From positions 1,054,001-1,118,000 of the forward strand of contig NZ_CP042345.1 in the NCBI RefSeq assembly GCF_007954425.1: 64,000 nt of DNA, in the 5' to 3' direction. The notes beneath the pieces were generated by a model, which saw only the letters and a program-made list of their open reading frames with translations, did not search any database and was not told the origin of the DNA. This stretch comes from Novosphingobium ginsenosidimutans. Its GTDB lineage: Bacteria > Pseudomonadota > Alphaproteobacteria > Sphingomonadales > Sphingomonadaceae. The position numbers and the translations under genes are program-made. Below, one piece after another: positions 1-45,633 of the stretch (the stretch's first letter is position 1; each line of letters begins with the position of its first letter).

Positions 1-1328
1 GTGCAGCCTCCGACATCACCGATGATTTTGCCGGTGCCGTTGATCGTAACGTTATAGGCCACCAGGATTTGACAGTAAGCGCCATTGTCAGCCTTGTCGA
101 CAATACCGCTGAAAGTAACTGAAGACTTGGGTAGATAAATCGCCCCAGTGATTTTCCAAGCCGGCTTGTTCCCAGCATAGGTGAAATCAACCCCAGTGGT
201 GATCCGCGGGTCCTGGTAGATCGCAACGCCTTTGAAGGCGGCCCCGGCATTAGTTGGGGCTTGGATGTTGAGCACGCCAGAGCCAGAGCCAGTGCCGTTG
301 TCGACTGGATAATGCTTGTAAACCCCACCGTTGGTACCGGAGAAAATCACAGTCGCCGAGGCCCCCGTCGCCGTTGACACGGTGAATCGATTAAGATCAA
401 GCTTGCCATTATAAATCACAAGCTGGGTGGCGGTTCCGGTGAGAGTTAAATTGCCAGTCAACTGCACATCGCCGCACAACTTGACCACGCCTGTGCGCGA
501 GCCCGAAATGCGGTTGGTGCCTGGCAGCGCAGGATCACGGGGACCTGAAGGGGCCTGCGGATAGGTGCTGCAAGTGTTGGCCGGAATGCTATTTACCATC
601 CCAGCGTAGGGGTCTGAAGGCAAATCAGTCTGACCCGAAATGTTGTTGGCAGTCTGGCTTGCACAGGTGCCAGAGACGGTTCCTGCTGCCACGGCGAAGT
701 CTGCGTCAAGGCCGTTACCGGTGCAAGTCATGTTGCCGTTTGAGAGCGCGGCGCAGCCCGAAAGATCCGCATCGGGCGTCCCATTGGTCTGCAGATTGTT
801 AAACGTCCAGACGCAAACCTCGTTGGTTAGCGCGCCTGATCCGCCTCCGGCCGCCACGGCGACTGCCCGAGCCCTTATCGTCTGATTACCGGAGAAGCCA
901 AGGACGCCGGAAAGGGAAAACGGGACACTGGTGCCGACTACGGCTTCGAAGCAGGTCGATCCGGCACGGACACCTACTGGGCAGGCTACCGATGCGGCAG
1001 TGACGGTTTCTGCGCCGGCCCCATTCACGAAGCCCAGCTTGCTGGCTGCAGCGCGCGCCTCGATTTGCGAGGTGGTGCCGGTGTTGCTGTTGACAATAGC
1101 CGCGGCCAGCGCGGCGCTGTCTGCCGCGTTCTGGGCAGAGCGCTGTATGTATTGCCAGCTCCCCAGTTCAACCGCATAGGCAACGCCGCCGACAATCGGG
1201 ATAAGCATCAGCGCCATCATCGGCGCGACGGCTGCGAGCTGCTGGTGCAGGAACCTGCGCAGGAAACGCATCAACCGCCCCTCGGCCAGGCGATCCGCAT
1301 CAACTGAATTGCCGGCTTCGGTTTGCAT
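1..1328 (-). CDS. TadG-like pilus assembly protein, partial (3' end beyond the window)
   Basis: Reading the minus strand from an ATG at 1328 gives an open frame of 442 codons that runs off the left edge, so the C-terminus is missing. The N-terminal part has a basic stretch, one hydrophobic segment around residues 35-55 (MMALMLIPIVGGVAYAVE) and then SAQNAADSAALAAA, the hallmark of the TadG/TadE-like putative Flp pilus-assembly N-terminal domain. The rest is Ser/Thr/Gly-rich with several Cys residues, consistent with an extracytoplasmic region. A GAGG lies five bases before the ATG; a second ATG at 1271 is possible. It is divergent from the flp-cpa-tad operon and probably works with that pilus as a minor pseudopilin or adhesin. 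Confidence 0.8.
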   Translation of the reverse strand, partial: MQTEAGNSVDADRLAEGRLMRFLRRFLHQQLAAVAPMMALMLIPIVGGVAYAVELGSWQYIQRSAQNAADSAALAAAIVNSNTGTTSQIEARAAASKLGFVNGAGAETVTAASVACPVGVRAGSTCFEAVVGTSVPFSLSGVLGFSGNQTIRARAVAVAAGGGSGALTNEVCVWTFNNLQTNGTPDADLSGCAALSNGNMTCTGNGLDADFAVAAGTVSGTCASQTANNISGQTDLPSDPYAGMVNSIPANTCSTYPQAPSGPRDPALPGTNRISGSRTGVVKLCGDVQLTGNLTLTGTATQLVIYNGKLDLNRFTVSTATGASATVIFSGTNGGVYKHYPVDNGTGSGSGVLNIQAPTNAGAAFKGVAIYQDPRITTGVDFTYAGNKPAWKITGAIYLPKSSVTFSGIVDKADNGAYCQILVAYNVTINGTGKIIGDVGGC

Positions 1329-1917
1329 GGTGACCTCGTTCGATCCTGCAGACTTCCAGCGCAACTGAAAAGGTGAAGCTCTGCCTGCTAAAACTATACT
1401 TGTCGCACTGCACTCTACCGGCACCTGTTAGCTTACAAGCTCTTCGCGCTGCATTCCTTGAACATAAGCGTGAAGTTCGGCGATTCGCAAGATTATTAAC
1501 CATGCCATTCGCAAACTTGTAGTTTTACGACAAAGGAGTTGCGCGATTTGTGCGAATCAATTTGCTTGATCATCGAGTCGGTCAGGTGCAAGGTGTGTCC
1601 GTCGGGCATCGCATTAACCGAAGTCCTTAATCCAAATCGCATTTAACTTGTTGTAAAGGTAAGTTAAAAATTTGCTACACGCTGTCAGTTGACGGTGCGG
1701 CCCGCTTGGTATGAAAATCCACCTATCCGAACAGGGGTCGCAATCGAAGTGCATCAAGTAACTCGGGACAAGTTATTGTTCTGGAAGCGAGGTTGTATTT
1801 CGGTGTTCAACCCTGAGCGGACGGGCCAACCGGAAATAGAGGCCGGAGCCCTGGTTTAGAAAACTGCCGACGTTACCCAACGAAGCGGGTGCGCCGGGTT
1901 CAAATGGGGTAATTGAT
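1329..1917. promoter_or_regulatory. Divergent intergenic region with candidate promoter for the pilus operon
   Basis: About 590 bases without a convincing gene separate the leftward TadG-like gene from flp. It is AT-rich for the neighbourhood and contains several TTAA tetrads (around 1613-1632 and 1640-1668). Their spacings, 9 and 17 bases, do not fit the CtrA consensus of 7. A TTGACG at 1689-1694 followed by TATGAA at 1710-1715 is a weak candidate sigma-70-type promoter, with an untranslated leader of about 200 bases before flp. This is inference from pattern only. Confidence 0.3.
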
Positions 1918-2171: not shown

Positions 2172-3074
2172 ATGCAGCAGCGAAACGTGATCATAGCGGG
2201 TGTGGCAATCCTTCTCGGGTTGCTAGCCGTGTTCGTGGTCAATGCCTATTTCTCCGGCATGGAGAAGCGCCAAGAGCGGGAGGCTGAGCAACAACAACTG
2301 GCGAAGGTCGTCGTTGCAAGCCAAGAGCTAAGTTTCGGTACACCGATTGGCCCTCAAAATTTGAAGCTGGCCAATTGGCCGGCAAGTTCGATTCCGGCTG
2401 GTGCTTTCACATCGGTTGAAGAAGCTTCAAGAAGCGGGGCAGTTGCGCTGCGCTCGATCGTTCCGGGCGAACCCGTATTGCGGTCGAAGATTTCGGGTGC
2501 CGATGGCCGCGCCACGCTTTCGGCCAACTTACCGACCGGCAAACTAGCCTATTCGATCCCAGTAACCGAAGTAGCCGGCGTTGCCGGCTTTGTCCGTCCT
2601 GGAGACCGAGTCGATGTGATCCTTACCCGCCAGATCCCCGGCAAAGGCGCCGAAGCGGCGACCGACAAGATGGCCGATGTTATCCTCGAAGGGGTCCCGG
2701 TGCTAGCGGTGGACCAGACGCTCAATGAGCAAGCGACTGCTGCGGCCGTTGCCAAGACTGCCACGCTAGAAGTGGACAGCTTTGGCGCACAGAAACTCGC
2801 GTTGGGCATCCAACTCGGCACTCTCAGCCTTGCGCTGCGAAATGTTGCAGATCAAGCTACCGGCGTGCGCTCGACCGTGATCCCCCGCAACCTTTCCGCC
2901 AGCAATTATTTCATCCCGGAAAGACCAAATGCCAGCGCCGCACCGCCGCCGGCTTTCCGATCGCCCACACTGGCGGCAGCTGGCAAGCCTGCCATGCTCC
3001 GCCCTGCCGGACCGACCATGACAGTCTACCGCGGCAGCCAGCCGTCTGAATATGAGGTGAAACGTGGCCGCTAA
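2172..3074 (+). CDS. cpaB: Flp pilus assembly protein CpaB (RcpC)
   Basis: A 300-residue protein with one N-terminal membrane segment (about residues 6-27, VIIAGVAILLGLLAVFVVNAYF). An SAF domain (about residues 45-115: VVVASQELSFGTPIGPQNLKL, then AVALRSIVPGEPVLRSKI) is followed by the RcpC/CpaB domain with YSIPVTEVAGVAGFVRPGDRVDV. CpaB is a periplasmic component of the Tad secretion apparatus associated with the secretin channel. An AGGGGG lies just before the ATG. The last codons overlap the GTG start of cpaC by 11 bases, which points to translational coupling. Confidence 0.95.
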   Translation: MQQRNVIIAGVAILLGLLAVFVVNAYFSGMEKRQEREAEQQQLAKVVVASQELSFGTPIGPQNLKLANWPASSIPAGAFTSVEEASRSGAVALRSIVPGEPVLRSKISGADGRATLSANLPTGKLAYSIPVTEVAGVAGFVRPGDRVDVILTRQIPGKGAEAATDKMADVILEGVPVLAVDQTLNEQATAAAVAKTATLEVDSFGAQKLALGIQLGTLSLALRNVADQATGVRSTVIPRNLSASNYFIPERPNASAAPPPAFRSPTLAAAGKPAMLRPAGPTMTVYRGSQPSEYEVKRGR

Positions 3075-4506
3075 GCAAATCACGCCGGCGCTGATCGCCG
3101 CCCTGCTTCTGGGGGCCACAGCCCTTGCGCCAGCCGCCGTCCAGGCCCAGGACCAGATGTCCGCCACCTCGGTCGAGATCCCACTCAACAAGAGTCAGGT
3201 GGTCAGCGCCGATCGCCCGATCGCCAAGGCGCTGGTCGGCAATTCCGAAATCGCCGATGTCGTGCCCCTGACAGATCGTTCGATCTACGTCCTCGGCAAG
3301 AAGATGGGCACCACCAGCCTGACGCTCTATGATGGCGGCGGCCGGGTGCTCTCGATCCTCGACATCTCAGTCGGTCCGGACGTGATCGCGCTGGAAGAGC
3401 AGCTCCGCCAGGTCGTGCCGAACGAGACGATCAATGCGCGCATCTCTAACCGTTCGATCGTGCTGACCGGCCTGGTCAACAGCGCAAGCGCGGCCGATCG
3501 CGCCAACCAGTTGGCCAAGGCCTACATCGACGAAAAGGAAGGTGGCAGCATCATCAACCTGATCGCGATGGGATCGAGCCAGCAGGTGATGGTCGAGGTG
3601 CGCTTTGCCGAAGTCCGCAGGGATGTTGGCAAGGACATCGGCGTGAAGCTCTCTGCCCAATCCCGCAATGGCAGTTTCGAAGGCGTTACTGGCGTAGGTT
3701 CGGGCTATTTTCCTGGAGTGCCCGCAGCAGGGGGGGCGGGGGGAATTCTTCCGTATCTTACTAGCGTGCCGATCTCCAATAGCTTTGGCGTGTTTCGCCA
3801 GCAGATCGGGCTAGGCAGCCTGAACATCAATGCCGTGCTCAATGCGCTGGAATCGCGGGACCTGGCCAAAACACTGGCCCAGCCGACCCTGATTGCACTA
3901 TCGGGCGAGAAGGCCTCGTTCCTCGCCGGTGGGGAATTTCCGGTCCCGGTCAGGCAGGACCAGAATGGCGGCCTAACTGTTGAATTCAAACCCTTCGGGA
4001 TCAGCCTGTCCTTCACGCCGACCGTGCTGGGCGACAAGACTATCAGCATGATCGTCGAGCCCGAAGTCAGCGCGATCGATCCGCAAGCTTCGCTGAGACT
4101 GAACGACATCATAATTCCGGGCCTGCGCACCCGCCGTGCCAACACCACGCTGGAGTTGCGGGATGGCGAGAGCTTTGCCATCGCCGGCCTGCTGTCCAAG
4201 GACTTTCAGACCACGGTAGAACAGGTGCCGCTGCTGGGTTCGATCCCAATCCTCGGAGCGCTGTTCCGTTCGAGCAGCTTCAAGAAGGGTGAGACCGAGC
4301 TGCTGATCGTCGTCACCCCGCACTTGGTTAAGCCGATCAAGCCGGAGCAGGTCCGCCTGCCGACCGACCGCGTGCTCGACCCGCGCGAAACCGACACGTT
4401 CCTGCTGGGGCAGCCTTATCGCCCGGCACCGGTCGAACCCGCCACGTCAAACGCGCCAGCTACCAAGAGCGCCGAAAAGAAGAAGGAGGACGGCCTTGCG
4501 TACTAA
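3064..4506 (+). CDS. cpaC: Flp pilus secretin CpaC (RcpA)
   Basis: A 480-residue outer-membrane secretin of the Tad system. It begins with GTG at 3064, inside the end of cpaB, and has a clear signal peptide ending in VQAQ (about residue 29). An N-terminal pilus/BON-like region (NKSQVVSADRPIAKALVGNSEIADV) is followed by a BON-like NARISNRSIVLTGLV segment. The secretin domain spans about residues 240-425, with ALESRDLAKTLAQPTLIALSG and the terminal VPLLGSIPILGALFRS...ELLIVVTPHLV signature. The C-terminal 50 residues are Pro/Lys-rich. It forms the pilus exit channel. Confidence 0.96.
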   Translation: MAAKQITPALIAALLLGATALAPAAVQAQDQMSATSVEIPLNKSQVVSADRPIAKALVGNSEIADVVPLTDRSIYVLGKKMGTTSLTLYDGGGRVLSILDISVGPDVIALEEQLRQVVPNETINARISNRSIVLTGLVNSASAADRANQLAKAYIDEKEGGSIINLIAMGSSQQVMVEVRFAEVRRDVGKDIGVKLSAQSRNGSFEGVTGVGSGYFPGVPAAGGAGGILPYLTSVPISNSFGVFRQQIGLGSLNINAVLNALESRDLAKTLAQPTLIALSGEKASFLAGGEFPVPVRQDQNGGLTVEFKPFGISLSFTPTVLGDKTISMIVEPEVSAIDPQASLRLNDIIIPGLRTRRANTTLELRDGESFAIAGLLSKDFQTTVEQVPLLGSIPILGALFRSSSFKKGETELLIVVTPHLVKPIKPEQVRLPTDRVLDPRETDTFLLGQPYRPAPVEPATSNAPATKSAEKKKEDGLAY

Positions 4507-4798
4507 GCTGCTGACCCTGGCCGGGGCTGCTACCGTGCTCCTGACCGGCTGTACCACCGCCGGCACCCTTAACACGCCTTACATGGGCGGGCCCGATAGC
4601 TTCGGCGAGGCCAACAAACAGACCATGGCCGCGATGATCATCGATCCGGACGCGGTCTACGAAGACGATGTGCCTGAAACCCATGCCGAGCATGCCGGCC
4701 AGGCCGTCGAGCGGTATCGTACCGACAAGGTCAAGGTGCCCGATCGGGTGAAGACCAATAGGGCGGCGCTTCCCGAAACCAGCCGGGAACCGAACTGA
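4496..4798 (+). CDS. Small lipoprotein of the Tad locus (CpaD position)
   Basis: A 100-residue protein starting with TTG at 4496, 11 bases inside the end of cpaC. The start is supported by an AAGGAGG six to eight bases upstream. A lipoprotein signal (TVLLTGC, lipobox Cys near residue 19) is followed by a hydrophilic, Asp/Glu-rich chain with no recognised domain. It occupies the place where other alphaproteobacteria carry cpaD, whose product is usually about 200 residues or longer. It is probably an outer-membrane lipoprotein helping the secretin, but its sequence does not let me call it CpaD. Confidence 0.7.
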   Translation: MRTKLLTLAGAATVLLTGCTTAGTLNTPYMGGPDSFGEANKQTMAAMIIDPDAVYEDDVPETHAEHAGQAVERYRTDKVKVPDRVKTNRAALPETSREPN

Positions 4799-4807
4799 GT
4801 AAGGGCC

Positions 4808-6010
4808 ATGGGCAGCGAAGATCTCCAGTCACATTACGCGCGAGTAACGAATTTGGGCAATGGTACGCGAATGATCGTCGTGGCATCGCCCGCCAACCTT
4901 GCAGTGCTCAGCGAATCCGCTTCGGCGGATGAGCTGACTGGACTGACCCTTGCGGCGCACGCGGCCCACGAGCCGCTGCCGTCAGCCCTGTTCCGCAATG
5001 CGGTCCTCGCGATCATCGAGGTCGACCCGCAGGATCGCCGCTCGCTCGATCGCATCAGCGCGGTGCGCGAACAGAACCCCGAGCTGGATCTGGTTGCTGC
5101 GATCAATGACGCCAGCGTCTCGCTGGTCCGCACCCTATTGCGCGAAGGCATAAGCGACGTGGTCGCGCTGCCCTTCGATCCCAGCGAGATAGTGCAGGTC
5201 ATCCTCGACGTCTCGGCCCGCCGCGGTGAGGAGATCGCCGCCGAAACGACCCTGGCTCCAGTGACCGTGGTGGCGCGATCGATCGGCGGCTGTGGCGCCA
5301 CTTCGTTGGCCACGCATCTGGCCGCCGAACTGGCCGCCCGCGATGAAACCGGCCGCGGCACACTGATTGTCGATCTGGACATCCAGCTTGGCGCCGTTGC
5401 CGACTATCTGGGCGTGACCCCGCGCAATACCATCTCCGACCTGCTGACCGGTGAGCACCGGCTTGACGAGGAACTGGTCCGCTCGGTCGCCACCGACGCT
5501 GGCGGCGGCTTGTGGGTGATCGGTGCTCCGCGATCGATCGTCCCCCTTGAATCGATTGACACCGATGTGCTGCTGCGCCTGCTGACCTTCCTACGCCGTC
5601 AGTATGCCCATGTCGTGCTCGATCTGCCGGCCAACTGGACCAACTGGGCGCTTTCCGCCGCGCTTGCCGCCGATACGGTACTGCTGGTTGTGGAATTGTC
5701 GGTGGCGAGCCTGCGCCAAGCCAAGCGCCGGCTGGAGCTGTTCGACACTGTCGGAATTGACCGGTCGCGGATCAAGATCGTCGTGAACCGGGCGGAACGC
5801 CGCCTGTTCCGGTCGATCAACCTCGAGGATGTCGCAACGACGCTCGGACATCCGGTGCTCGGCAGCTTGGCGCTTGACGCGCCCTTGGTCAGCACGGCCC
5901 AGAACCAGGGCGTCCTGGTCGGCAGTGTCCAGCGAAAGAGCCGTTATCTGGCCGACGTGGCACAACTAACAACCCAATTGCAGGAACTTGCCAGCGGGAG
6001 CCAGGGATGA
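4808..6010 (+). CDS. cpaE: CpaE/TadZ-like pilus localisation ATPase-fold protein
   Basis: A 400-residue protein with an N-terminal receiver-like domain (residues about 20-135, with LAIIEVDPQDRRSLD and GISDVVALPFDP) and a C-terminal MinD/ParA-fold domain (about 150-390: GTLIVDLDIQLGAVADYLG, HVVLDLPANW). CpaE/TadZ positions the pilus machine at the pole. The deviant Walker A stretch reads SIGGCGATS at residues 158-166: the signature Lys (I159) and the P-loop Lys (A164) are both absent, so ATP binding or hydrolysis may be altered. It lies between the lipoprotein and cpaF and overlaps cpaF by 4 bases (ATGA). Confidence 0.9.
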   Translation: MGSEDLQSHYARVTNLGNGTRMIVVASPANLAVLSESASADELTGLTLAAHAAHEPLPSALFRNAVLAIIEVDPQDRRSLDRISAVREQNPELDLVAAINDASVSLVRTLLREGISDVVALPFDPSEIVQVILDVSARRGEEIAAETTLAPVTVVARSIGGCGATSLATHLAAELAARDETGRGTLIVDLDIQLGAVADYLGVTPRNTISDLLTGEHRLDEELVRSVATDAGGGLWVIGAPRSIVPLESIDTDVLLRLLTFLRRQYAHVVLDLPANWTNWALSAALAADTVLLVVELSVASLRQAKRRLELFDTVGIDRSRIKIVVNRAERRLFRSINLEDVATTLGHPVLGSLALDAPLVSTAQNQGVLVGSVQRKSRYLADVAQLTTQLQELASGSQG

Positions 6011-7386
6011 GCACCTGGCACCTGAAGCGCCCACCGCAGGAGGACGCTGCAGCGACACCGAAAGGCGTAGGCCAGGAAGTGCAGCGCGTACCGGAATCCT
6101 TCCAAGTTTCGGACAAGCTTCTGGCACTGAAGGTATTGATTCACCACCAACTGCTTGAGAAGGTCAATCTCTCAGCGCTGGACAACATGCCCCGCGACCA
6201 GATCGCGAAGGAGATCTCCGACATTATCGTCGCGCTGCTGGACGAGCGGGGAGAAGTGCTGAACCGCGCGGAGCGGACAATCCTCAGCAATGACGTGTTG
6301 GATGAATTGCTGGGTCTGGGGCCACTTGAGCCACTGCTCAAGGACGATTCCATCAACGACATCCTCGTCAACGGTTTCCAGACGGTATTCGTGGAGCGGT
6401 CGGGGGTGCTCGAAAAGGTTTCGACCCGGTTCCAGGATGAGAAGCACTTGCTGCGTATCATCCAGAAGATCGTTAGCGCTGTTGGACGCCGGGTTGATGA
6501 ATCCTCGCCATTCGTGGATGCCCGCTTACCCGACGGTTCGCGTGTCAATGCCATTGTCTCGCCGCTGGCAATCGACGGATCGCTGCTTTCGATCCGCAAG
6601 TTCTCGAAGAAGCCGATCTCCATGCAGCGGATGATCGAGTATGGCTCACTGCCGCCGGAAATGGCCGAAGTGCTTGGTGCCATCGTGCGCGGGCGCCGAA
6701 ATGTGATCATTTCGGGCGGAACCGGTTCGGGCAAGACCACGATGCTCAACGCCTTGTCGACTTTCATCGATGAGCGTGAACGTATTGTAACTATTGAAGA
6801 TTCTGCCGAGCTCCAGCTCCAGCAAGAGCACGTGGCGAGGCTCGAAACCCGCCCCCCAAACATCGAAGGCAAAGGCGAAGTCAACCAGCGGGATCTGGTC
6901 AAGAACGCGCTGCGCATGCGCCCCGACCGCATCATCCTGGGCGAATGCCGCGCTGGCGAAGCATTCGACATGCTGCAGGCGATGAACACCGGTCACGATG
7001 GATCAATGACGACGATCCACGCCAACAATCCGCGCGATGCTCTTGCTCGTATCGAGCAGATGGTCGGGATGAGTGGCCTCGATATCTCGGCGCGGTCTGC
7101 CCGGGCGCAGATCGCCGCCGCGATCAACGTTGTCCTGCAGATTGGCCGCTTGAGCGATGGCAAGCGCAAGGTTCTGTCGCTCAGCGAAATCACGGGGATG
7201 GAAGGTGAAACCATCACCATGCAGGAAATATTCCGCTATCGAATGACCGGTCGCGATGAAGTGGGGAATGTCACCGGCTACTTCGAGGCAACCGGGATCA
7301 GGCCCCGCTTCGCCCAGGAGCTGGAAGCCTATGGCATCACGCTTGACCCGGCCCTGTTCCGGCCGGCAGGACGGAACGCCCGGTAA
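6007..7386 (+). CDS. cpaF: Flp pilus assembly ATPase CpaF (TadA)
   Basis: A 459-residue type II/IV secretion ATPase that powers Flp pilus assembly at the inner membrane. It has the expected N-terminal region ([26 protein letters not shown]), a Walker A at residues 237-244 (GGTGSGKT, Lys243), an Asp-box region, the Walker B-like [15 protein letters not shown], and the GSMTTIHAN histidine box. Its length is normal for the family. The start overlaps the end of cpaE (ATGA) and the stop codon abuts the tadB start, so all three are probably cotranslated. Confidence 0.97.
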
Positions 7387-8387
7387 TGACCGCCCTTCTG
7401 ATCAGGTTGCTGGTGCTTATCGCGATCTTCGGGTCGGTATTCCTTATCTCGCAACTGCTGGTCGGATCCTACGTCAACCGTCGAGCAGAGCGGGCAACGA
7501 TCAACCGCCGTCTCGCTTTGATGCAGTCGGGACTTGACCAGGAAGCTGTCACCGGCGCCCTGCTCAAGAACGCCCCCCCCACGCTCGGACCCGAAGCCAC
7601 CTATTTCGAGCAGGCATGGGTCGGTTTTGTTCGTACCGTGATGATGTCGGGCATCCAGGCGCAAAGCCGCAGTTTGGCCTTCGGGATGGGGGTCAGCTTC
7701 TGCGCTCTGCTGTTGCTGATAACCTTTATTGCGTGGATCCTGAAGTTTCCCATTACGGCCGGCGTTGTGATGCTTGTTGCTTCGGTCTCACTGGCGATCT
7801 CGGTGGGATTGCCGCTGCTCTATGTCAGTCGTAAAGCGCAGAAGCATCGGCAGCGCATGGAAGAGCAGTTCCCGCTTGCCCTCGATATCTTCACCCGATC
7901 GCTGCGCGCCGGTCATCCAATCGCTTCGGCAATCTCGCTGGTAACCGATGAGATGAGCGATCCGATTGGCAGTGAATTCGGTCTCGTTGCTGACGAGGTA
8001 GCCTATGGGGCCGAACTAACGGACGCGCTACTCGGCATGGCCGAACGCTGGGATCTCGACGACATGCGTATGTTCGTTGTCTCGGTCTCGGTCCAAAGCG
8101 AAACGGGCGGCAACCTTGCTGAGATTCTCCAGAATCTCTCCAACGTCATCCGTGCCCGTGCCTCGCTTTATATGAAGGTGCGGGCACTGAGTTCGGAGGG
8201 CCGGATGAGTGCCGTGATGCTGACGGCGCTGCCGATACTTACACTGGTTGGCCTGTTCGCAATCAACCCAGGGTTTTATCTCGATGTTGCTACAGACCCG
8301 ATCTTTGTAATCGGCTTCCCGGCACTGTTGGTGCTGTACGCATTGGGCGTCCTTATCATCCGCCGCATAGTCGATTTGAAGGTTTGA
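7386..8387 (+). CDS. tadB: Flp pilus inner-membrane platform protein TadB
   Basis: A 333-residue protein of the type II secretion system F domain family. It has an N-terminal membrane helix (about 4-28), a pair of helices near residues 95-140, and the T2SSF domain at about 160-290 (RMEEQFPLALDIFTRSLRAGHPI and SVSVQSETGGNLAEILQNLS), then C-terminal membrane helices. TadB and TadC together form the platform on which CpaF acts. The ATG overlaps the last base of the cpaF stop codon (TAATG), and tadC follows after one base. Confidence 0.96.
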   Translation: MTALLIRLLVLIAIFGSVFLISQLLVGSYVNRRAERATINRRLALMQSGLDQEAVTGALLKNAPPTLGPEATYFEQAWVGFVRTVMMSGIQAQSRSLAFGMGVSFCALLLLITFIAWILKFPITAGVVMLVASVSLAISVGLPLLYVSRKAQKHRQRMEEQFPLALDIFTRSLRAGHPIASAISLVTDEMSDPIGSEFGLVADEVAYGAELTDALLGMAERWDLDDMRMFVVSVSVQSETGGNLAEILQNLSNVIRARASLYMKVRALSSEGRMSAVMLTALPILTLVGLFAINPGFYLDVATDPIFVIGFPALLVLYALGVLIIRRIVDLKV

Positions 8388-8388
8388 C

Positions 8389-9357
8389 ATGATCGAGTAT
8401 CTCGCCACGAACGCCTGGGCGCGGACCGTCGTATTGGTACTAGTCTTCGCAGGGATTGCGGGGGTTGCCGCATGGGTGGCGCTCGCCGCCGCGCGTCGGC
8501 AGGAAATCAAGGACGAACTCCGCTCGATCGCCCGCACTGGGCATTCTGCGACGGTCGCAAGCCTCAGCGACCGACGAGATGATCAATGGAGTCGGCTCGT
8601 TGACCGGATCGAGAAGGCCGGCCTCAGCCTGACCGACACCAAATCCGATGTCTTGCGCGCAAAGATGCTTGCCGCGGGTTTCGATTCTCCGGCCGCCCCG
8701 CGCATATACACCTTGGTGCGGTTGTTGCTTGTTACCCTCTTTCCTGCATTGCTTGTCATTCTTACCTTGCTCGCGGGACAGGAACTCACCTTCGTCAAGC
8801 TCTACCTGCTTGGCTCACTGTCCGCGATCATTGGGCTCTATGTCCCAACCTTGTACGTCAGGGCCAGAGCGGACCGCAGACGAGAAGCGATAATCCGCGG
8901 CTTTCCGGATAGTCTCGACCTCATGCTGGTTTGCGTTGAGGCAGGTCTCGGTCTCGAGGCAGCCTTGGACCGGGTGGGACGCGAAATGTCTGTGTCGCAT
9001 CCTCTGGTGGGCCGAATGCTTACCACCAGCACCCTGTTACTGCGGGCCGGGGCTTCACGTGAAACTGCCTTGCGTAAGATGGCCGACACTGCAGGGGTGG
9101 ATGAAATCGCATCATTCGCAACTCTGCTTATTCAGTCGGATAGGCTTGGCACTAGTATTGCAGCCACTTTGCGCGTGTACGCAGACGAAATGCGGGAACG
9201 GCGGCGCATGCGGGCTGAGGAAAAAGCTCACCGCATTCCGGTGCTGATTTCCATCCCGGTAGTAACCTGCATGCTGCCAGTCATGATCGGCGTTCTAATG
9301 CTTCCTGCTGCCGTGCGTGTCGTTCGGCAGATGCTTCCTGCCATGAATGGAGGATAA
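8389..9357 (+). CDS. tadC: Flp pilus inner-membrane platform protein TadC
   Basis: A 322-residue T2SSF-domain protein, partner of TadB. The N-terminal helix (about 14-35) is followed by a membrane pair near 105-160 and the T2SSF region FPDSLDLMLVCVEAGLGLEAALDRVG, ending in LIQSDRLGTSIAATLRVYADEMRERRR and a C-terminal membrane pair. The last bases of tadC (GGAGG before TAA) provide the ribosome-binding site of the next gene, which again indicates a single operon. Confidence 0.95.
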   Translation: MIEYLATNAWARTVVLVLVFAGIAGVAAWVALAAARRQEIKDELRSIARTGHSATVASLSDRRDDQWSRLVDRIEKAGLSLTDTKSDVLRAKMLAAGFDSPAAPRIYTLVRLLLVTLFPALLVILTLLAGQELTFVKLYLLGSLSAIIGLYVPTLYVRARADRRREAIIRGFPDSLDLMLVCVEAGLGLEAALDRVGREMSVSHPLVGRMLTTSTLLLRAGASRETALRKMADTAGVDEIASFATLLIQSDRLGTSIAATLRVYADEMRERRRMRAEEKAHRIPVLISIPVVTCMLPVMIGVLMLPAAVRVVRQMLPAMNGG

Positions 9358-9358
9358 C

Positions 9359-10123
9359 ATGAGACTGACTGCATCGAAAGCGCTCTTTGCGACTCTCGGC
9401 TGTGTCCTGCTCGGTGGATGTTCGATCTTCGCCCCCAAGCACATGGCACAGTCAGTGCACGTGATCGATCAAGAGCAGCTCGCCAAAGCGAGCCAAGCCC
9501 GGGCCAAAATGTCCGAGGTTACAGATGCGGGGCGGGCGCTGCTGGACGCTGGGCAGCCCGGCTATGCGATCGACACATTCCGCAAGGCTCTGGCGAAAGG
9601 TGAAGCGCCTGGTCCGGCCCTGAATGGACTGGGTGTAGCCTATGCCCGCATCGGCCGGCAGGATCTGGCAGTATGGTACTTCAAGCAGGCGATGGTATTT
9701 GACCCGGGTGAGACCCGCTACGCTATGAACCTTGAGCGGGTTTCGGCCCCCACCAGTTTTGCAACCGCCCTGGCGGCGCAGGCGGAAGCGGCACCAATTG
9801 CTGGCGGCCCAGTGGGCCGGCCCGCTACTTCTCGCCCGGTGTACGTGGTGACACGCTCGCCTCGCGCCGAGATCAAGATCGTTACGGCGCCTGCACAATC
9901 AAATGTGTCAGCCAGGCCGACACGCATGGCCGTTGGGCAGTCGCTCGCCCGCATCGAGTTCGCGGACCACACCAACACCGAGCGCAAATCCCGAGTGGTA
10001 GAGGTAACGCCAACAAGGTCCCGGATCACGCAAGTCGGTAGTCCACCGGCGCGGAAGCCAGCTCCGACCGTTCGCATGGCATCCGCAAATCCGCAGCCAC
10101 TTAAGGTGGGCCGGACGAAGTAG
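9359..10123 (+). CDS. tadD: TadD-like TPR lipoprotein
   Basis: An exported TPR protein, last gene of the pilus operon. The ATG at 9359 is preferred over the one at 9347: it has GGAGGA at the right distance, and it gives a clean lipoprotein signal (LGCVLLGGC). Residues about 55-120 form two TPR-like helical pairs (GQPGYAIDTFRKALAKGEAPGPALNGLGVAYARIG in pieces; AVWYFKQAMVFDPGE). The C-terminal 120 residues are low-complexity, Arg/Pro/Thr-rich and have no recognised domain. TadD proteins are outer-membrane lipoproteins thought to help assembly or stability of the secretin. Confidence 0.85.
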   Translation: MRLTASKALFATLGCVLLGGCSIFAPKHMAQSVHVIDQEQLAKASQARAKMSEVTDAGRALLDAGQPGYAIDTFRKALAKGEAPGPALNGLGVAYARIGRQDLAVWYFKQAMVFDPGETRYAMNLERVSAPTSFATALAAQAEAAPIAGGPVGRPATSRPVYVVTRSPRAEIKIVTAPAQSNVSARPTRMAVGQSLARIEFADHTNTERKSRVVEVTPTRSRITQVGSPPARKPAPTVRMASANPQPLKVGRTK

Positions 10124-19573: not shown

Positions 19574-20017
19574 TTGCTATTGACACCTGACACCAACCCG
19601 TCTGATCAACTCGCAAAACACCTGGCGGCGATCGCTGATCTGCCCGCCGCGGCGCTACGCGAGGAATGGGTTCAACTGACCCGGCGCATAGTGCCCAAAG
19701 TCAGTCCCAGCGTGCTGCGCTTGGCAGTTGCTTGGGAAATCCAAGCCAAGGCTCATGACGGTCTCTCGGTCGCAACGTGCCAGCGGCTCGAACAGCTCGC
19801 GCGGGCCAAGACCCTCGCTCATGGTACCCAGCTTGGCGTGCGGTTGGAGCGCGAGTGGAGGGGCACGCTGCACATCGTCACAGTCGATAAGGACCATGGA
19901 ATTCGCTGGAACGATCGCGAGTGGTCCTCGCTCAGCGAAGTAGCGCGTGCGATTACCGGCACGCGCTGGTCGGGGCCTGCCTTCTTCGGCCTGAAGCAGA
20001 AGCGGCGCGCCGCGTGA
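19574..20017 (+). CDS. DUF2924 domain protein, partner of the serine recombinase
   Basis: About 147 residues beginning with TTG at 19574, chosen because an AGGAGA lies eight bases upstream; a GTG at 19532 is less likely. It matches the DUF2924 pattern: LPAAALREEWVQLTRR, the LRLAVAWEIQAKAHDG helix, LAHGTQLGVRLEREWRGTLH, then GIRWNDREWSSLSEVARAIT and TRWSGPAFFGLK. DUF2924 genes are regularly found just upstream of large serine recombinases. They are suspected to be accessory DNA-binding or directionality factors. Its TGA overlaps the GTG start of the recombinase (GTGA), so the two are translationally coupled. Confidence 0.85.
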   Translation: MLLTPDTNPSDQLAKHLAAIADLPAAALREEWVQLTRRIVPKVSPSVLRLAVAWEIQAKAHDGLSVATCQRLEQLARAKTLAHGTQLGVRLEREWRGTLHIVTVDKDHGIRWNDREWSSLSEVARAITGTRWSGPAFFGLKQKRRAA

Positions 20018-21669
20018 AGGAAATCCGCTGCATAATTTACACGCGAAAGTCGAGCGAAGAAGGCCTCGACCAAGACTTCAATTCGCTCCACGCCCAGCGT
20101 GAAGCCTGCTCGGCTTACATTGCCAGTCAGGCGAGTGAAGGCTGGTTGCTCTTGCCCGAACGTTATGACGACGGCGGTCTGTCTGGCGGCACCCTGGAAC
20201 GACCAGCTCTCCAGCGTCTGCTATCCGATATCGCCACCCGCGAGATCGACATCATCGTCGTCTACAAGGTTGATCGACTGACTCGCTCGCTGCTCGATTT
20301 TGCCAAGCTGGTCGAAGCCTTCGACAAAGCTGGTACAAGCTTCGTTTCAGTAACACAGGCGTTTAACACGACGACCAGCATGGGGCGACTGACGCTCAAT
20401 ATGCTGCTTTCCTTCGCCCAATTCGAGCGCGAGGTAACCACGGAGCGGATCCGTGACAAGATCGCCGCCTCAAAAGCCAAGGGCATGTGGATGGGCGGGA
20501 CGCCCCCGCTGGGCTACCGTCCTGATGGCCGCAGCCTAGCAATAGTCCACGAACACGCGGCAATCGTTCGAGAGGTCTACGCGCGATATCTTACGATCGG
20601 TAATGTAAGACATCTTGCTGAGCAGCTTCAGGCTGATCGGATAGGCGCTCCGGTGCGCCATAGCGGCAAGGGAAGCCCATTCGGAGGGCGGCCGTTCACA
20701 CGCGGGCAGCTTTACGCGATCCTCAAGAACCCGGTCTATCTGGGCCGGATCGCACACAAGGGCCGTACCTTCGAAGGCCGCCATCCTGGTATCATCGCGC
20801 CTGTGCAGTGGGATGCGGTTCAGAAGAAACTTGCGGAGAACGTTCGCGGCCAACGTCAGGGGAGACGCCCACAGGAAGGGCTTCTAGTCGGTAAGCTCTT
20901 TGAAGCCGGCAAACCGCTTGTCGCCACGTATACGAACAAGGGCACGGTCCGTTACCGCTATTATGTAAGCCGAACGAAGCATTTCGATGCGTCTCCCGAA
21001 GGTATGCGCATTCCTGCTGGCGAGATCGAAGGCGTCGTGGTCGATTTAGTCGCCGGTCTGTTCGGCGATGCAGTGGGTTTGCTCGATAAGCTGGGCGCGC
21101 AGCTGGACTCAAGCAACATTGCATCGGTGATGAGCACATGTGCTGAGCTAAGCGTAACCTTGAAGGGGACCCGGCGCAGCGAAGTTAGATCTGTGCTGGA
21201 TTGTGTCCAGATCGAGTCAGGCCGCATCAGGATCGATCTCAGTTTGCCCGAATTGCTGCGGTTGCTCGACCTCACTGGCGCTAGCCAGAAAGCTGCTTGT
21301 TTCAGTGTCATGGTTCCAGTTCATTTGACAAGGACTGGTCGGGTGGTCCGTCTGGTCGATCGAACAGGAATTGTCGCGGCAGCGCGCGCTCCCGATCTTG
21401 CACTCGTTGCACTTCTCGCCAAAGCGAGGCGCTGGTGGGGACGCCTCGCCGACGGCGAACTTAATGTCCAGTCGCTGGCAGCAGAGGAAGGGGTGAGCCC
21501 CTCATGGATGATCAGGGTCGTTCGCTTGGCTTTTCTTTCCCCAAGCGTAGTTGAAGCGGCGCTTGAGGGGACCCTCAGGGCTGAGATCAACGGCACGATG
21601 CTAGTCCAAAAAGATGCGGTATCGGCTTCTTGGGCGGAACAGGAAACGAGATTGCTCGCATTCACCTGA
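20014..21669 (+). CDS. Large serine recombinase
   Basis: About 551 residues from GTG at 20014. The N-terminal resolvase domain has IIYTRKSSEEGLDQDFNSLHAQREAC (catalytic Ser about residue 13), IDIIVVYKVDRLTRS, and LTLNMLLSFAQFEREVTTERIRDKI. A recombinase domain (MWMGGTPPLGYRPD, RHLAEQL, GRPFTRGQLYAILKNPVYLGRIAHKG) and a zinc-ribbon/beta-rich region follow, and a C-terminal helical tail extends from about 400. Such enzymes integrate and excise phages or islands between att sites. Only DUF2924 is with it, so what it mobilises is unclear. The ORF is intact. Confidence 0.93.
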   Translation: MKEIRCIIYTRKSSEEGLDQDFNSLHAQREACSAYIASQASEGWLLLPERYDDGGLSGGTLERPALQRLLSDIATREIDIIVVYKVDRLTRSLLDFAKLVEAFDKAGTSFVSVTQAFNTTTSMGRLTLNMLLSFAQFEREVTTERIRDKIAASKAKGMWMGGTPPLGYRPDGRSLAIVHEHAAIVREVYARYLTIGNVRHLAEQLQADRIGAPVRHSGKGSPFGGRPFTRGQLYAILKNPVYLGRIAHKGRTFEGRHPGIIAPVQWDAVQKKLAENVRGQRQGRRPQEGLLVGKLFEAGKPLVATYTNKGTVRYRYYVSRTKHFDASPEGMRIPAGEIEGVVVDLVAGLFGDAVGLLDKLGAQLDSSNIASVMSTCAELSVTLKGTRRSEVRSVLDCVQIESGRIRIDLSLPELLRLLDLTGASQKAACFSVMVPVHLTRTGRVVRLVDRTGIVAAARAPDLALVALLAKARRWWGRLADGELNVQSLAAEEGVSPSWMIRVVRLAFLSPSVVEAALEGTLRAEINGTMLVQKDAVSASWAEQETRLLAFT

Positions 21670-24390: not shown

Positions 24391-24483
24391 TTACTTGCCG
24401 CAGCGGCAGTTAGGACCGCACTTGCAATCAACGCAGGTGCAAGTGGGCTTGCAGCGCGCATCATGTTCTTGCTGAGTGGTCAT
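24391..24483 (-). CDS. Metallothionein-like Cys-rich peptide, 30 residues
   Basis: A small gene read on the minus strand from ATG at 24483 to TAA at 24391, with AAGGAG seven bases before the start. The 30-residue product has seven Cys in the order C-x3-C-x-C-x2-C-x-C-x3-C-x-C (residues 11, 15, 17, 20, 22, 26, 28), in CKPTCTCVDCKCGPNCRCGK, and no aromatic residue. The Cys-x-Cys pairs and Lys/Gly spacing are typical of metallothioneins, which bind Zn(II), Cd(II) or Cu(I) through thiolates. It stands alone between a non-coding stretch and the beta-lactamase-family gene. Codon-level integrity and the ribosome-binding site make it very likely real. Confidence 0.85.
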   Translation of the reverse strand: MTTQQEHDARCKPTCTCVDCKCGPNCRCGK

Positions 24484-24532
24484 TTCATTTCTCCTTTGTG
24501 AGTTTGCGAGGATTTCTGTTTATGCTTGGCGA

Positions 24533-24573
24533 CGATTGCCGGCTTGAACGAAATGGCTAAAATCAGGCAATCG
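24533..24573. repeat. 8-bp inverted repeat upstream of the metallothionein-like gene
   Basis: CGATTGCC (24533-24540) and GGCAATCG (24566-24573) are perfect complements 25 bases apart, 50-90 bases upstream of the metallothionein-like start and 50 bases downstream of the hydrolase stop. It may be a hairpin ending the hydrolase transcript or an operator. The sequence alone does not decide. Confidence 0.4.
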
Positions 24574-24622: not shown

Positions 24623-26449
24623 TCAATCCGACGAAACCGATAATGTCGTCTTGCCGTCGTCTCCCAACTTCAAAGTGAATCTGTAAGCAGCAGTCTCTCC
24701 GATCAATAGCCGGATATTGCCGCCATGCTGGACCAGGGCGATGCTCCCACGATCCGGGACAAGCGTCGCACCTGCGCTGACCCCGAAATCGACTTGCTTC
24801 CAGTCCTCTGACGCAAGCTTTAACTGGTGCTCGCCAGGCTGCATCATGATCCGGACCGCGTATTGCCTGGGACCTTCCTTGATCAACGGTGCGCCGATTG
24901 ACCAGCCGTTCATGGAGCCTCGCAGGTAGATTGGCACATCCGCTTTGACTGCCTGAGGCTTTGTGCGCAGCAAGGTCATCGGCGGTCCACCCGCCACGAG
25001 CTGGAAACTTTGATAATCTGGCGCGAACTCTATCACTAATCCGCTGACGTTGGTTCGAAAGCGGACCGGACTTAGCGGGACGAGGCGTTCGGGGCGCGGC
25101 CCCCCAGTCTGCGCAAACAGGCCATCCTCCCGGGCATCGAGATAGACCGAAAGTCCGCCGCCTTCGAACAGGCCGGATGCCTGTGCCAGCTCTGCCGCAG
25201 AGCGCGGAAGCTCCACATCAGACGGCACGTCAAGTTCGGTCCAGCCATACAGGGCCGCCGCTGCGCGAACGATTTCGTCGGCAAGACGGCGGCCTTGGTT
25301 ACCATTCGTCAAGACTACGATCCCTTCGCCTCGCTCAGCATAGGCAATCATCGCAGACTGGAACCCTTCATTCGCGCCATCATGGCCGAACCGAAGATTT
25401 TCTCCGGTACCGGCAATCGCTGGCCCCAGACCCCAGTCTTTCCCGCCGGTGGTGAACATTGCTTTAGTCATGGCGGGTGACAGACGGTGGCCCGGCTTGC
25501 CTCTCGCCGAAGCCTGGATATCCAGCAGCAATCGAGCAAGGTCACTCGCCGTGGTCCACAGGCCGGCCGGGGCAAGCTCGGGATAAATGTGAAAACCTCC
25601 GCCGAGGACCTTGCCGTCGACGTGACCCAGCGCAGCATTTGCCAGAATGTCGCTCGAGGGTGGCTGGGCATATGCGCTGCGCGTCATCCCAAGCGGCTTC
25701 AAGAGTTCGCGCTGGGCAAGCCGCGAAAAGTCCATGCGGGTCGAGTTTTCAAGCGCCGCTTGCACGACCATGTAGCCGCCGCCAGAATACTGCCATTGCG
25801 AGCCGGCCGGCAGCACACTGCGAATTGCCGGATTATTGGCAGGCGGTTCGCCATCCATGATTTGGTTGAACGAGGGCAGGCGTTGATCTTTTCCGTATCC
25901 GGCGAATCCGTGGACCCCAAGTCCGCCGGTGTGGCTCAATAACTGCCGCAAGGTGACTCCTGATGGAGCCAGCTTGGGGTCGTTCGGCAACTGCCATTGT
26001 CGCAGGACGCGATTGATATCGTCATCGAGCAAGAGCTTGCCCTGTTCGACGGCCCGGAGTGCCATGATGGCTGTCGCTAGCTTGCTGATAGATGCGGCCT
26101 GGAATGCGGTATCAGCGGTGACTGGCCGGCAGCTTGCCAAGTCTCGCACGCCCCAGCCCCTCGCCCAATCGATCTTGCCATTGTGGATTACCGCGATGCT
26201 GACACCCGGCACCTGATAGGCGGCCATGCGTTCGGCCAGCGTGAATCGTTGTGCCTTATCCTGGACAATCGCCGGACGCAGGTTCGTCTCAAGTGCCTTC
26301 GTGCGCACATTCGACTTGCCTCCCAGTTCGGAGGGCAGCGGATGGCAATTTGCGACTGGTCCTTGGGCCCATCCCGCAGCAGAAAGCGTGAGAGCCAGCA
26401 GCGCGGACAAAACTCGGCCAATGGTTGGGGCGGGGTGCATTCTCACCAT
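24623..26449 (-). CDS. Serine beta-lactamase-family hydrolase with C-terminal beta domain
   Basis: A 608-residue exported protein (signal peptide ending near AAGWAQ). Residues about 60-400 are a class C beta-lactamase/CubicO-like domain: AASISKLATA (SxxK nucleophile motif), WQYSGGGYMVVQAAL (Tyr-Ser-Gly in the YxN position), LLSHTGGLG, and FGHDGANEGFQS (HxG-like third motif). The C-terminal part carries IYLRGSMNGWSIGAPLI, like a CBM48-type beta-sandwich, and ends in LGDDGKTTLSVSSD. Enzymes of this family are mostly esterases or D-aminopeptidases, not true beta-lactamases. A GAGGAA precedes the ATG. The substrate cannot be told. Confidence 0.85.
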   Translation of the reverse strand: MVRMHPAPTIGRVLSALLALTLSAAGWAQGPVANCHPLPSELGGKSNVRTKALETNLRPAIVQDKAQRFTLAERMAAYQVPGVSIAVIHNGKIDWARGWGVRDLASCRPVTADTAFQAASISKLATAIMALRAVEQGKLLLDDDINRVLRQWQLPNDPKLAPSGVTLRQLLSHTGGLGVHGFAGYGKDQRLPSFNQIMDGEPPANNPAIRSVLPAGSQWQYSGGGYMVVQAALENSTRMDFSRLAQRELLKPLGMTRSAYAQPPSSDILANAALGHVDGKVLGGGFHIYPELAPAGLWTTASDLARLLLDIQASARGKPGHRLSPAMTKAMFTTGGKDWGLGPAIAGTGENLRFGHDGANEGFQSAMIAYAERGEGIVVLTNGNQGRRLADEIVRAAAALYGWTELDVPSDVELPRSAAELAQASGLFEGGGLSVYLDAREDGLFAQTGGPRPERLVPLSPVRFRTNVSGLVIEFAPDYQSFQLVAGGPPMTLLRTKPQAVKADVPIYLRGSMNGWSIGAPLIKEGPRQYAVRIMMQPGEHQLKLASEDWKQVDFGVSAGATLVPDRGSIALVQHGGNIRLLIGETAAYRFTLKLGDDGKTTLSVSSD

Positions 26450-26567
26450 GATTTCCTCGGATCATTTGAAGGCTCTGCACCTAGATCCGGTCGATCATCG
26501 TCACTTGAACGCAAGGGCTATTCTTTGAACGGCTCCCAATCACCTGTCCCCGCCATGCCGTGGACTT

Positions 26568-27329
26568 CTAGAGAATCCGCAGAGATGTCGGCGAGATCCC
26601 GAACATGCGTTTGAAAGTGCGGCTGAAATGCGCGGAGTCGGCAAAGCCGGCCTCGTGTGCAACCACCGTCATGGGGTGGCCCTCGGCCATCAACGCTGTC
26701 GCCCGTGAAAGCCGTAACCACAGCAAGTAGGTCCTGAACGGTAGTCCAGTCTCTTCCACAAATAGATGGCGCAAGCGGCTAGCGGAAAGCCCGCTCAGAC
26801 CCTCGAAGTCGCGCAAACTGATCGCGCGATCGAGATTCTCGCCGGCTGCCGCCATCAATTTGCGCACGCGCAGGTCCGGAGCATCGCCGACCACACCCCC
26901 GGTGAGCTGCTCGACCAACTGGCGCCCAAGCAATTCGAGCTTGTTAATGCCGCCCTCATCCGCGCGAAATGCACTGAGCACAGCATCAGAAAGTGGCCGA
27001 AGTTTATCGAACGGCACCGGCGCCAGCTTGGCCTGCTGCAAAAGTGAACGGGCTACCGTTCTCCCAGACCGGCTATCGGGGTCAATGAACAGATGCGCAA
27101 TGACGCCGCTGGACTCGAACACATGTGGGGCGTTCGGCGCAATAATGACTGCCGGACTGTCAAGCGCGGTGTCTTCGGCCTCAAATCGCATCCACCCACC
27201 CAGTGAAATGCTGATCTGTACGGCGTGATGCGCATGGGTCTCGGTCCGTGACCCGGGCTTGACCACGTCGACTACCCAGAGGCTTCCGCCTTGCCACATG
27301 GCGATCCGGGTTTGCGCCAAAAGGGTCAT
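26568..27329 (-). CDS. AraC-family transcriptional regulator
   Basis: About 253 residues from the ATG at 27329. Starts at 27347, 27419 or TTG 27452 are also in frame and cannot be excluded. The N-terminal cupin-like sensor (GSRTETHAHHAVQISISLGG) is followed by a C-terminal pair of helix-turn-helix motifs: ISLRDFEGLSGLSASRLRHLFVEETG and AEGHPMTVVAHEAGFADSAHFSRTFKRMFGISP. It is divergent from the operon starting at 27506 and is the obvious candidate regulator of that operon. The hydrolase gene at 24623 is on the same strand downstream. Confidence 0.9.
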   Translation of the reverse strand: MTLLAQTRIAMWQGGSLWVVDVVKPGSRTETHAHHAVQISISLGGWMRFEAEDTALDSPAVIIAPNAPHVFESSGVIAHLFIDPDSRSGRTVARSLLQQAKLAPVPFDKLRPLSDAVLSAFRADEGGINKLELLGRQLVEQLTGGVVGDAPDLRVRKLMAAAGENLDRAISLRDFEGLSGLSASRLRHLFVEETGLPFRTYLLWLRLSRATALMAEGHPMTVVAHEAGFADSAHFSRTFKRMFGISPTSLRIL

Positions 27330-27973: not shown

Positions 27974-28441
27974 ATGGCTTATCTGATCGGAGTTTTGCTT
28001 GCCGCTGCGACGCTGGCCTTCACCAAGAGCACAGGGATGGATCGTGATCGCGCACTCTACCCGTTGATGTTGATTGTTATCGCTTCGTACTATGCCCTAT
28101 TCGCCGTCATATCAGGTCGCAATTCCGTGCTCTTGCAAGAGCTGGTCATGATCGGCCTGTTCGTGTCGGCAGCTTGGCTTGGTTTCACGCGTTGGCCGTG
28201 GCTGCTCGTTGCGGGTCTGGCAGGTCACGGGCTGTTTGATGCAGTGCACGGGCACCTGATCGCGAATACCGGCGTGCCTGCCTGGTGGCCAGCCTTTTGC
28301 CTCGCCTTTGATGGTAGCGCTGCTGCCTATGTCGCCTGGCGCCTTCATGCCGAGAACCGGCTTACGGGAACCAGTATCCCAGCCACGAAAATGACCGAAC
28401 TTCAGATCATTCCTGGCCATGTCGGGGGAGCAGGTCGATGA
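27974..28441 (+). CDS. Small membrane protein, DUF6010-like
   Basis: A 155-residue protein with four or five membrane helices. The motif LLVAGLAGHGLFDAVHGHLI followed by NTGVPAWWPAFCLAFDGSAAAYVAW (histidines in a helix, then a Trp/Pro loop and an Asp-containing helix) resembles the DUF6010 family. GAGG precedes the ATG. Its TGA overlaps the ATG of the following hydrolase (ATGA), so the two are coupled. Role unknown. Confidence 0.7.
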   Translation: MAYLIGVLLAAATLAFTKSTGMDRDRALYPLMLIVIASYYALFAVISGRNSVLLQELVMIGLFVSAAWLGFTRWPWLLVAGLAGHGLFDAVHGHLIANTGVPAWWPAFCLAFDGSAAAYVAWRLHAENRLTGTSIPATKMTELQIIPGHVGGAGR

Positions 28442-45542: not shown

Positions 45543-45633
45543 TGGCGGAGCGGGAGGGATTCGAACCCTCGATACGCTTTTGACGTATACTCACTTTCCA
45601 GGCGAGCGCCTTCGACCACTCGGCCACCGCTCC
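45543..45633 (-). tRNA. tRNA-Ser (anticodon GGA)
   Basis: The minus strand folds as a class II tRNA: acceptor stem GGAGCGG/CCGCTCC with discriminator G and encoded CCA, D-arm GCCGAGTGGTCGAAGGC, anticodon stem CTCGC/GTGAG with loop CTGGAAA (anticodon GGA, decoding UCC/UCU), a long variable arm (TATACGTCAAAAGCGTATC), and T-arm GAGGGTTCGAATCCCTC. The 3' end faces the accessory region to the left, the usual orientation for island integration. Confidence 0.95.

Follow-up and report, generated by a model that had tools for sequence, protein, structure and literature searches.

Bacterial metallothioneins are short and Cys-rich, and gene finders and filtered BLAST searches easily overlook them. A typical trait of metallothioneins is the clustering of thiols in C-x-C order; the arrangement C-x3-C-x-C-x2-C-x-C also occurs in the beta domain of the mammalian proteins, and the copper peptide of Neurospora is similar in size to the peptide considered here. 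CadR belongs to the MerR-type regulators. The locus described in this study resembles SmtA and BmtA, with their SmtB/ArsR-type repressors, in combining a small Cys-rich peptide with a regulator gene and an operator beside or near it, so far as the accessible portions of two accounts go (PMC7387436, PMC8790569). The same portion of the former ascribes a Cys9His cluster to PflQ2 MT and presents the metallothionein operon of Pseudomonas as lacking metal-responsive regulators (PMC7387436). In Pseudomonas aeruginosa, CadR and the zinc-ribbon peptide Zrd offer a further likeness, a metal regulator activating a small Cys-rich peptide; Zrd is likened to metallothioneins and described with mononuclear sites only, and AraC is nowhere mentioned in the text (PMC12301328). 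No link between metallothioneins and AraC was found in the open literature, including the available sections of PMC13160365 and PMC4486848; most subscription papers fell outside the scope of that search, and novelty is unproved.

The minus strand of the window (the whole 64,000-nucleotide stretch analysed) carries a gene whose translation, from an ATG start to a TAA stop, is MTTQQEHDARCKPTCTCVDCKCGPNCRCGK (Table 1). Its Cys residues occupy positions 11, 15, 17, 20, 22, 26 and 28, a spacing of C-x3-C-x-C-x2-C-x-C-x3-C-x-C, and account for 7 of the 30 residues (23%), with three C-x-C motifs. Phe, Tyr and Trp are absent, and the single His, at position 7, lies outside the Cys region. The preliminary description had claimed a short minus-strand gene with AAGGAG, ATG and TAA, seven Cys in this order and no aromatic residues, all of which was confirmed by the translation and by the AAAGGAG read ahead of it. 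Small, Cys-rich, bearing C-x-C motifs and free of Phe, Tyr and Trp, the peptide has the sequence features of the metallothionein class.

Table 1. Features of the peptide locus, in window coordinates
Feature	Position	Strand	Details
Metallothionein-like peptide gene	24391..24483 (stop included)	-	30 aa, seven Cys; translation
Shine-Dalgarno AAAGGAG	24491..24497	-	Read in the sequence; ends 7 nt from ATG
Possible -10 hexamer CATAAA	24519..24524	-	Recognised by eye, 18 nt past TTCAAG
Upstream element copy 1, ATTTTAGCCATTTCGTTCAAGCC	24541..24563	-	TTCAA at -65 from peptide ATG; predicted to be an AraC operator covering the -35 region
Serine hydrolase, class C beta-lactamase superfamily (PF00144)	24623..26449	-	Pfam E 8.8e-55; lies between the regulator and peptide genes
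Upstream element copy 2, AGAATAGCCCTTGCGTTCAAGTG	26502..26524	-	TTCAA at -60 from hydrolase ATG; matrix score 27.9
AraC-family regulator	26568..27329	-	253 aa; PF12833 E 3.9e-21, alignments, tree
Small membrane-type protein	27974..28441	+	Relatives adjoin the peptide gene in L157 and L162; 54 and 56% identity

The seven-Cys codon pattern has one match without mismatch in the window, where shuffled sequence would be expected to give 0.12 matches with up to three mismatches. When two GG positions were added, making the pattern slightly stricter though still satisfied by the window, it matched 119 stretches in genome_contigs (257 Gb), a rate corresponding to about 3e-5 matches per 64 kb on two strands. 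Conservation is stronger evidence for the peptide gene than these chance-pattern statistics. Two of the 119 stretches proved homologous beyond the Cys, namely those of Sphingomonas sp. CBMAI 2297 (L041) and Sphingomonas sp. 1F27F7B (L115), which are 70 and 79% identical to the window peptide. Of 397 genomes in this family, seven matched in a profile search at E 0.01: the window's own genome (G000), G178 and five others. The G178 match (L124; E 1.2e-6, 50% identical, seven Cys) is a third homologue, and the five others (L125-L129) were dropped, having only 3 or 4 Cys and lacking the conserved pattern. The seven Cys are kept in register in all four homologous ORFs, and pN/pS is below 1 in each of the six pairs (0.18-0.53), on few sites. 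The 63-nt core of the gene is 57-89% identical between homologues, and the 60 nt downstream, aligned without gaps at their best, are 38-50% identical in the three comparable pairs. Because seven-Cys homologues occur in separate genomes with pN/pS at these values, the window ORF is, judged by its sequence, a genuine gene. Of the two signs that the preliminary description had proposed to look for among sphingomonads, conserved Cys spacing is present in three further ORFs with exact spacing and open frames, and purifying selection is indicated, on few sites, by the pN/pS values; neither a lack of such homologues nor broken frames, which it had named as refutation, was encountered.

A chance open reading frame would fit the very short length of the gene and the absence of a true copy from all 58 same-genus genomes; the conservation of frame, Cys, ribosome site and promoter element in separate genomes leaves this reading a negligible probability and in practice refutes it. 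Two weak same-genus matches (L002, L003), with 3 to 6 Cys in no conserved pattern, were chance frames, and the distribution of the peptide gene is patchy. Most of the remaining pattern stretches were apparently low-complexity or out-of-frame reads. In the sphingomonads L055 and L103 the Cys codons fall only out of frame, within what by eye appears to be a DUF559 gene, and a Paracoccus match is out of frame within an apparent ABC transporter gene. Cys-rich repeats in frame were found in L008, L021, L043, L079 and L095, the last (a Proteobacteria MAG) encoding at about 1268-1381 (+) a separate 37-residue CxC-rich peptide of repeated C-x-C-G units. The Cys-pattern scan of viral_contigs gave no match.

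No family model recognises the peptide. Neither Pfam nor NCBIfam gave a match for the window sequence even at E 10, the other peptides gave nothing nearing a cut-off there, and PF02069 has no match in the whole genome although a Synechococcus control was detected. Against SmtA/BmtA in particular, the peptide lacks both the family model and the nine-Cys-plus-His cluster. The sole PDB match of the four-row profile was metallothionein 1qjl (E 0.69), and the single window sequence matched trypsin inhibitors at the top (E 0.29), neither being significant. These last matches, the small size and Cys content, and one homologue that weakly hits an NCBIfam model of Cys-rich RiPPs (E 0.047; 13.7 bits, the cut-off being 45) could be read as signs that the peptide is the precursor of a Cys-rich product, modified or secreted, such as a RiPP, a bacteriocin or a knottin-like peptide. 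Such a precursor is very unlikely here: the number of Cys is odd, no leader is seen, no maturase or exporter gene was recognised in the list of surrounding ORFs, some of which were searched, and the peptide is linked instead to a regulator.

That regulator belongs to the AraC family. Its start at ATG 27329 was picked by alignment, and the open frame may begin at TTG 27452. The C-terminal part forms a double helix-turn-helix, with PF12833 and PF00165 both over their cut-offs; the N-terminal part has no Pfam match and contains four His (H32, H34, H35 and H69) that are invariant in all seven aligned sequences. The window protein has no Cys. In L041 and L115 the peptide gene is directly preceded, on its upstream side, by an AraC-family regulator gene, whose counterpart in the window is set two genes upstream, separated from the peptide gene by the PF00144 serine hydrolase.

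Before the peptide genes stands an element with the core AGCC-NN-T-N-CGTTCAAG, in tandem (L041, L115, L136, L138, L160-L163), divergent (L156-L158) and displaced (L159, window) arrangements. TTCAA lies 61-68 bp before the ATG of 11 peptide genes, and AGCC, a T and TTCAA are invariant across all 11 elements. With leave-one-out matrices, each of the 11 elements was the top site of its own locus, and its score was reached by none of 500 shuffles in 10 loci and by one in L136; the window's copy 1, at 28.2, is the top site of the 64 kb (0/500 shuffles). Outside the training set, a site scoring >11 lies no more than about 2.3 kb from the AraC gene in 13 of 16 loci, the only match in L140 lies ~4 kb from that gene, and L142 and L169 have none above the threshold of 11. 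The threshold was reached in five of six follow-up loci, the sixth (L189) carrying a variant recognised by eye. The exact core AGCCVHTNYRTTCAA has 13 occurrences in 12 genomes, where the reversed pattern has one; three of the 12 have no exact match. Eight of these sites precede peptide genes, one precedes the window hydrolase and one lies at the AraC locus of G1085; the three inside long open frames were taken as chance. A generic promoter scan called no promoter on the peptide's strand and did not report the CATAAA hexamer. Element and regulator are conserved together across loci, and contact between the AraC protein and the element is predicted.

The conserved ORF, the regulator gene and the element are linked across genomes. 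The AraC searches that revealed this were run without reference to the peptide, at thresholds of 1e-45 (family) and later 1e-40. Within the family, five of 397 genomes encode a close AraC relative and all five have a small CxC-rich ORF nearby, the short peptide in G000 and G178 and a longer CxC-rich peptide in the other three. In the class (7/385 genomes), the peptide accompanies the regulator in four of the six besides G000 (G760, G665, G610 and G628), with no peptide ORF beside it in G809 and G631; in the phylum (5/398) it does so in one of four (G1056), with none beside it in G1085, G1001 and G1167. The family of G1056 supplied AraC relatives in 8 of 147 genomes, six of them new, and a peptide was present in all six. 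Rule and matrix had been fixed before this search, and these six are the only test made after fixing; the AraC gene and its element can thus serve as bait for metallothionein genes. The peptide-ORF rule had been altered once after data were seen, when the peptides of L138, L163 and L167, missed at first, were found downstream of the element. A last AraC search, of seven genomes, yielded two, both already known. In total, a small CxC-rich ORF adjoins the regulator in 16 of 21 separate genomes and is absent beside it in five, a count rather than a rate given overlapping samples and two thresholds, and one that leaves out L041 and L115, which were found through the peptide.

AraC relatives also occur in 29 plasmid records. 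At two of the ten plasmid loci inspected the peptide is present (the megaplasmid pMTS1 of Cupriavidus sp. P-10 and a Gemmatirosa plasmid, Gemmatimonadota), and at eight it is absent beside the regulator. A single fixed rule applied to 25 loci (297,334 bases) returned 12 peptide ORFs, each just downstream of an element. In viral_contigs the AraC search turned up a single weak, partial match. A tblastn search of plasmids with two of the longer peptides returned nothing, and since the pMTS1 peptide was missed by its own search, BLAST negatives for such low-complexity peptides are uninformative. The combination is found in Alphaproteobacteria, in genomes of other Pseudomonadota, on a Cupriavidus megaplasmid and on a Gemmatimonadota plasmid.

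In the AraC tree (27 rows), the starred set of 12 (97/94) comprises 11 peptide-linked rows and L135. L161 and L162 share a group with the window regulator (93/85, not starred); the peptides that the window's resembles, those of L041, L115 and L159, come with regulators that form a separate group (100/99). The window locus may have been assembled from two modules, although the tree and peptide likeness are only suggestive of this.

The element might instead be a feature of the end of the AraC gene, or serve that gene's own control, with the AraC protein having no part in regulating the peptide; it does overlap the AraC stop codon in L041 and L115. This is improbable given its position elsewhere. 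In L156-L158 regulator and peptide genes are divergent and the element still lies before the peptide, in L159 it does so with an opposite-strand gene intervening, and in the window a gene of 608 aa separates the peptide's element from AraC.

The element suggests, by its position at other loci, a wider regulon beyond the peptide genes. In more distant loci it precedes genes for DUF3703 (L164 and L166; L137 as annotated), for which nothing was found in the open literature searched, as well as genes for YtkA-like lipoproteins (tested in L168; by eye in L135, L138 and L166), sterol desaturases or fatty acid hydroxylases (annotated in L139, L143 and L144; by eye in L165) and an MMPL protein (L141). 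Because such genes follow the element in loci without the peptide, the inducing signal may not be metal. They would also accord with a peptide that acts as a thiol or redox buffer, is induced when the cell meets oxidative, envelope or lipid stress, and binds metal only incidentally; the di-haem cytochrome c peroxidase genes found close to two regulators would fit this as well. Such a buffer is nevertheless unlikely, in view of the peptide's seven clustered C-x-C thiols, of a metallothionein type, and of the several regulator relatives whose neighbours include cadR, P-type ATPase, CDF or efflux genes. The AraC locus of Cupriavidus pauculus has P-type ATPase, lspA and cadR genes as annotated, without the element, and that of Pseudomonas mandelii has CDF, cadR, DUF3703 and lspA, likewise as annotated. 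Metal genes around some of the regulators point to metal, without proving it. A metallothionein role for the peptide gains support because this kind of regulator and the element also adjoin different, longer CxC-rich peptides, of which that of pMTS1 is followed by two genes, one of them CzcI-like by a weak match (E 9.5e-5; 23 bits, the cut-off being 100) and the other for outer-membrane efflux.

Beside the window locus itself, nothing was recognised as a metal-resistance gene. The hydrolase (608 aa) falls far short of all the NCBIfam beta-lactamase cut-offs shown. The Cupriavidus plasmid likewise has a PF00144 serine hydrolase close to its regulator (L136:2459-3796), with no element before it. 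The small membrane-type protein is possibly an accessory gene; it has no Pfam or NCBIfam match and no element was found before it, and relatives occur at 3 of 26 AraC loci. Its family takes in L162:3912-4691 (-), which is fused to DUF3703, and L157:1752-2153 (-). The G+C content of the window is 0.51-0.64 over roughly the first 45 kb and 0.62-0.68 after that, the change falling near a tRNA-Ser gene (45543-45633), and the peptide locus may lie on an acquired island (1-45543). A large serine recombinase (19921-21669, +; PF00239 and PF07508) is encoded ~3 kb from the peptide gene, and a row of co-directional genes at 2172-10120 (+) has, by eye only, the look of a tad-type pilus cluster.

The best reading of the locus, with a probability of roughly 0.7, is that the peptide buffers metal and that a dedicated AraC-type activator turns on its gene; metal binding, DNA binding and the inducer are deduced. 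The peptide is probably cytoplasmic, and its seven thiolates, in C-x-C and C-x2/3-C spacing, would wrap a small metal-thiolate cluster buffering a thiophilic metal such as Zn, Cd or Cu(I). The AraC protein is predicted to bind the element around the -35 region of the peptide promoter and, under metal stress, would recruit RNA polymerase there, acting by activation rather than repression. Through the second copy of the element it would switch on the serine hydrolase together with the peptide, placing both under one regulator. The preliminary description was right about the gene, and its assignment to the metallothionein kind is probably correct. The regulator and element beside metallothionein-like peptides are of more interest than the peptide gene alone, and with a single regulator and a single 23-bp site it becomes possible to test how such peptides are switched on in proteobacteria.

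A broader proposal has about an even chance of being right: a so far undescribed metal-defence module crossing phyla, in which the AraC regulator is a metal sensor, with its conserved His residues perhaps involved, and acts through one element to activate fast-evolving metallothioneins missed by the family libraries tried. Short fungal and animal metallothioneins show no significant sequence relation to the window peptide in Pfam or PDB searches, and the likeness to them is probably convergent. The Pseudomonas metallothioneins PflQ2 MT and PmtA are likewise bacterial Cys-rich metal peptides, but the window peptide has seven Cys in place of the Cys9His described for PflQ2 MT in the available text, and a regulator gene is linked to it, unlike the operon as presented there. 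In contrast to SmtA/BmtA, the window genome is without PF02069, the regulator is of the AraC type rather than ArsR/SmtB, and the element is not a 12-2-12 inverted repeat. If the proposal is true, the AraC-type activators would constitute a metallothionein regulatory class apart from the SmtB/ArsR and MerR types.
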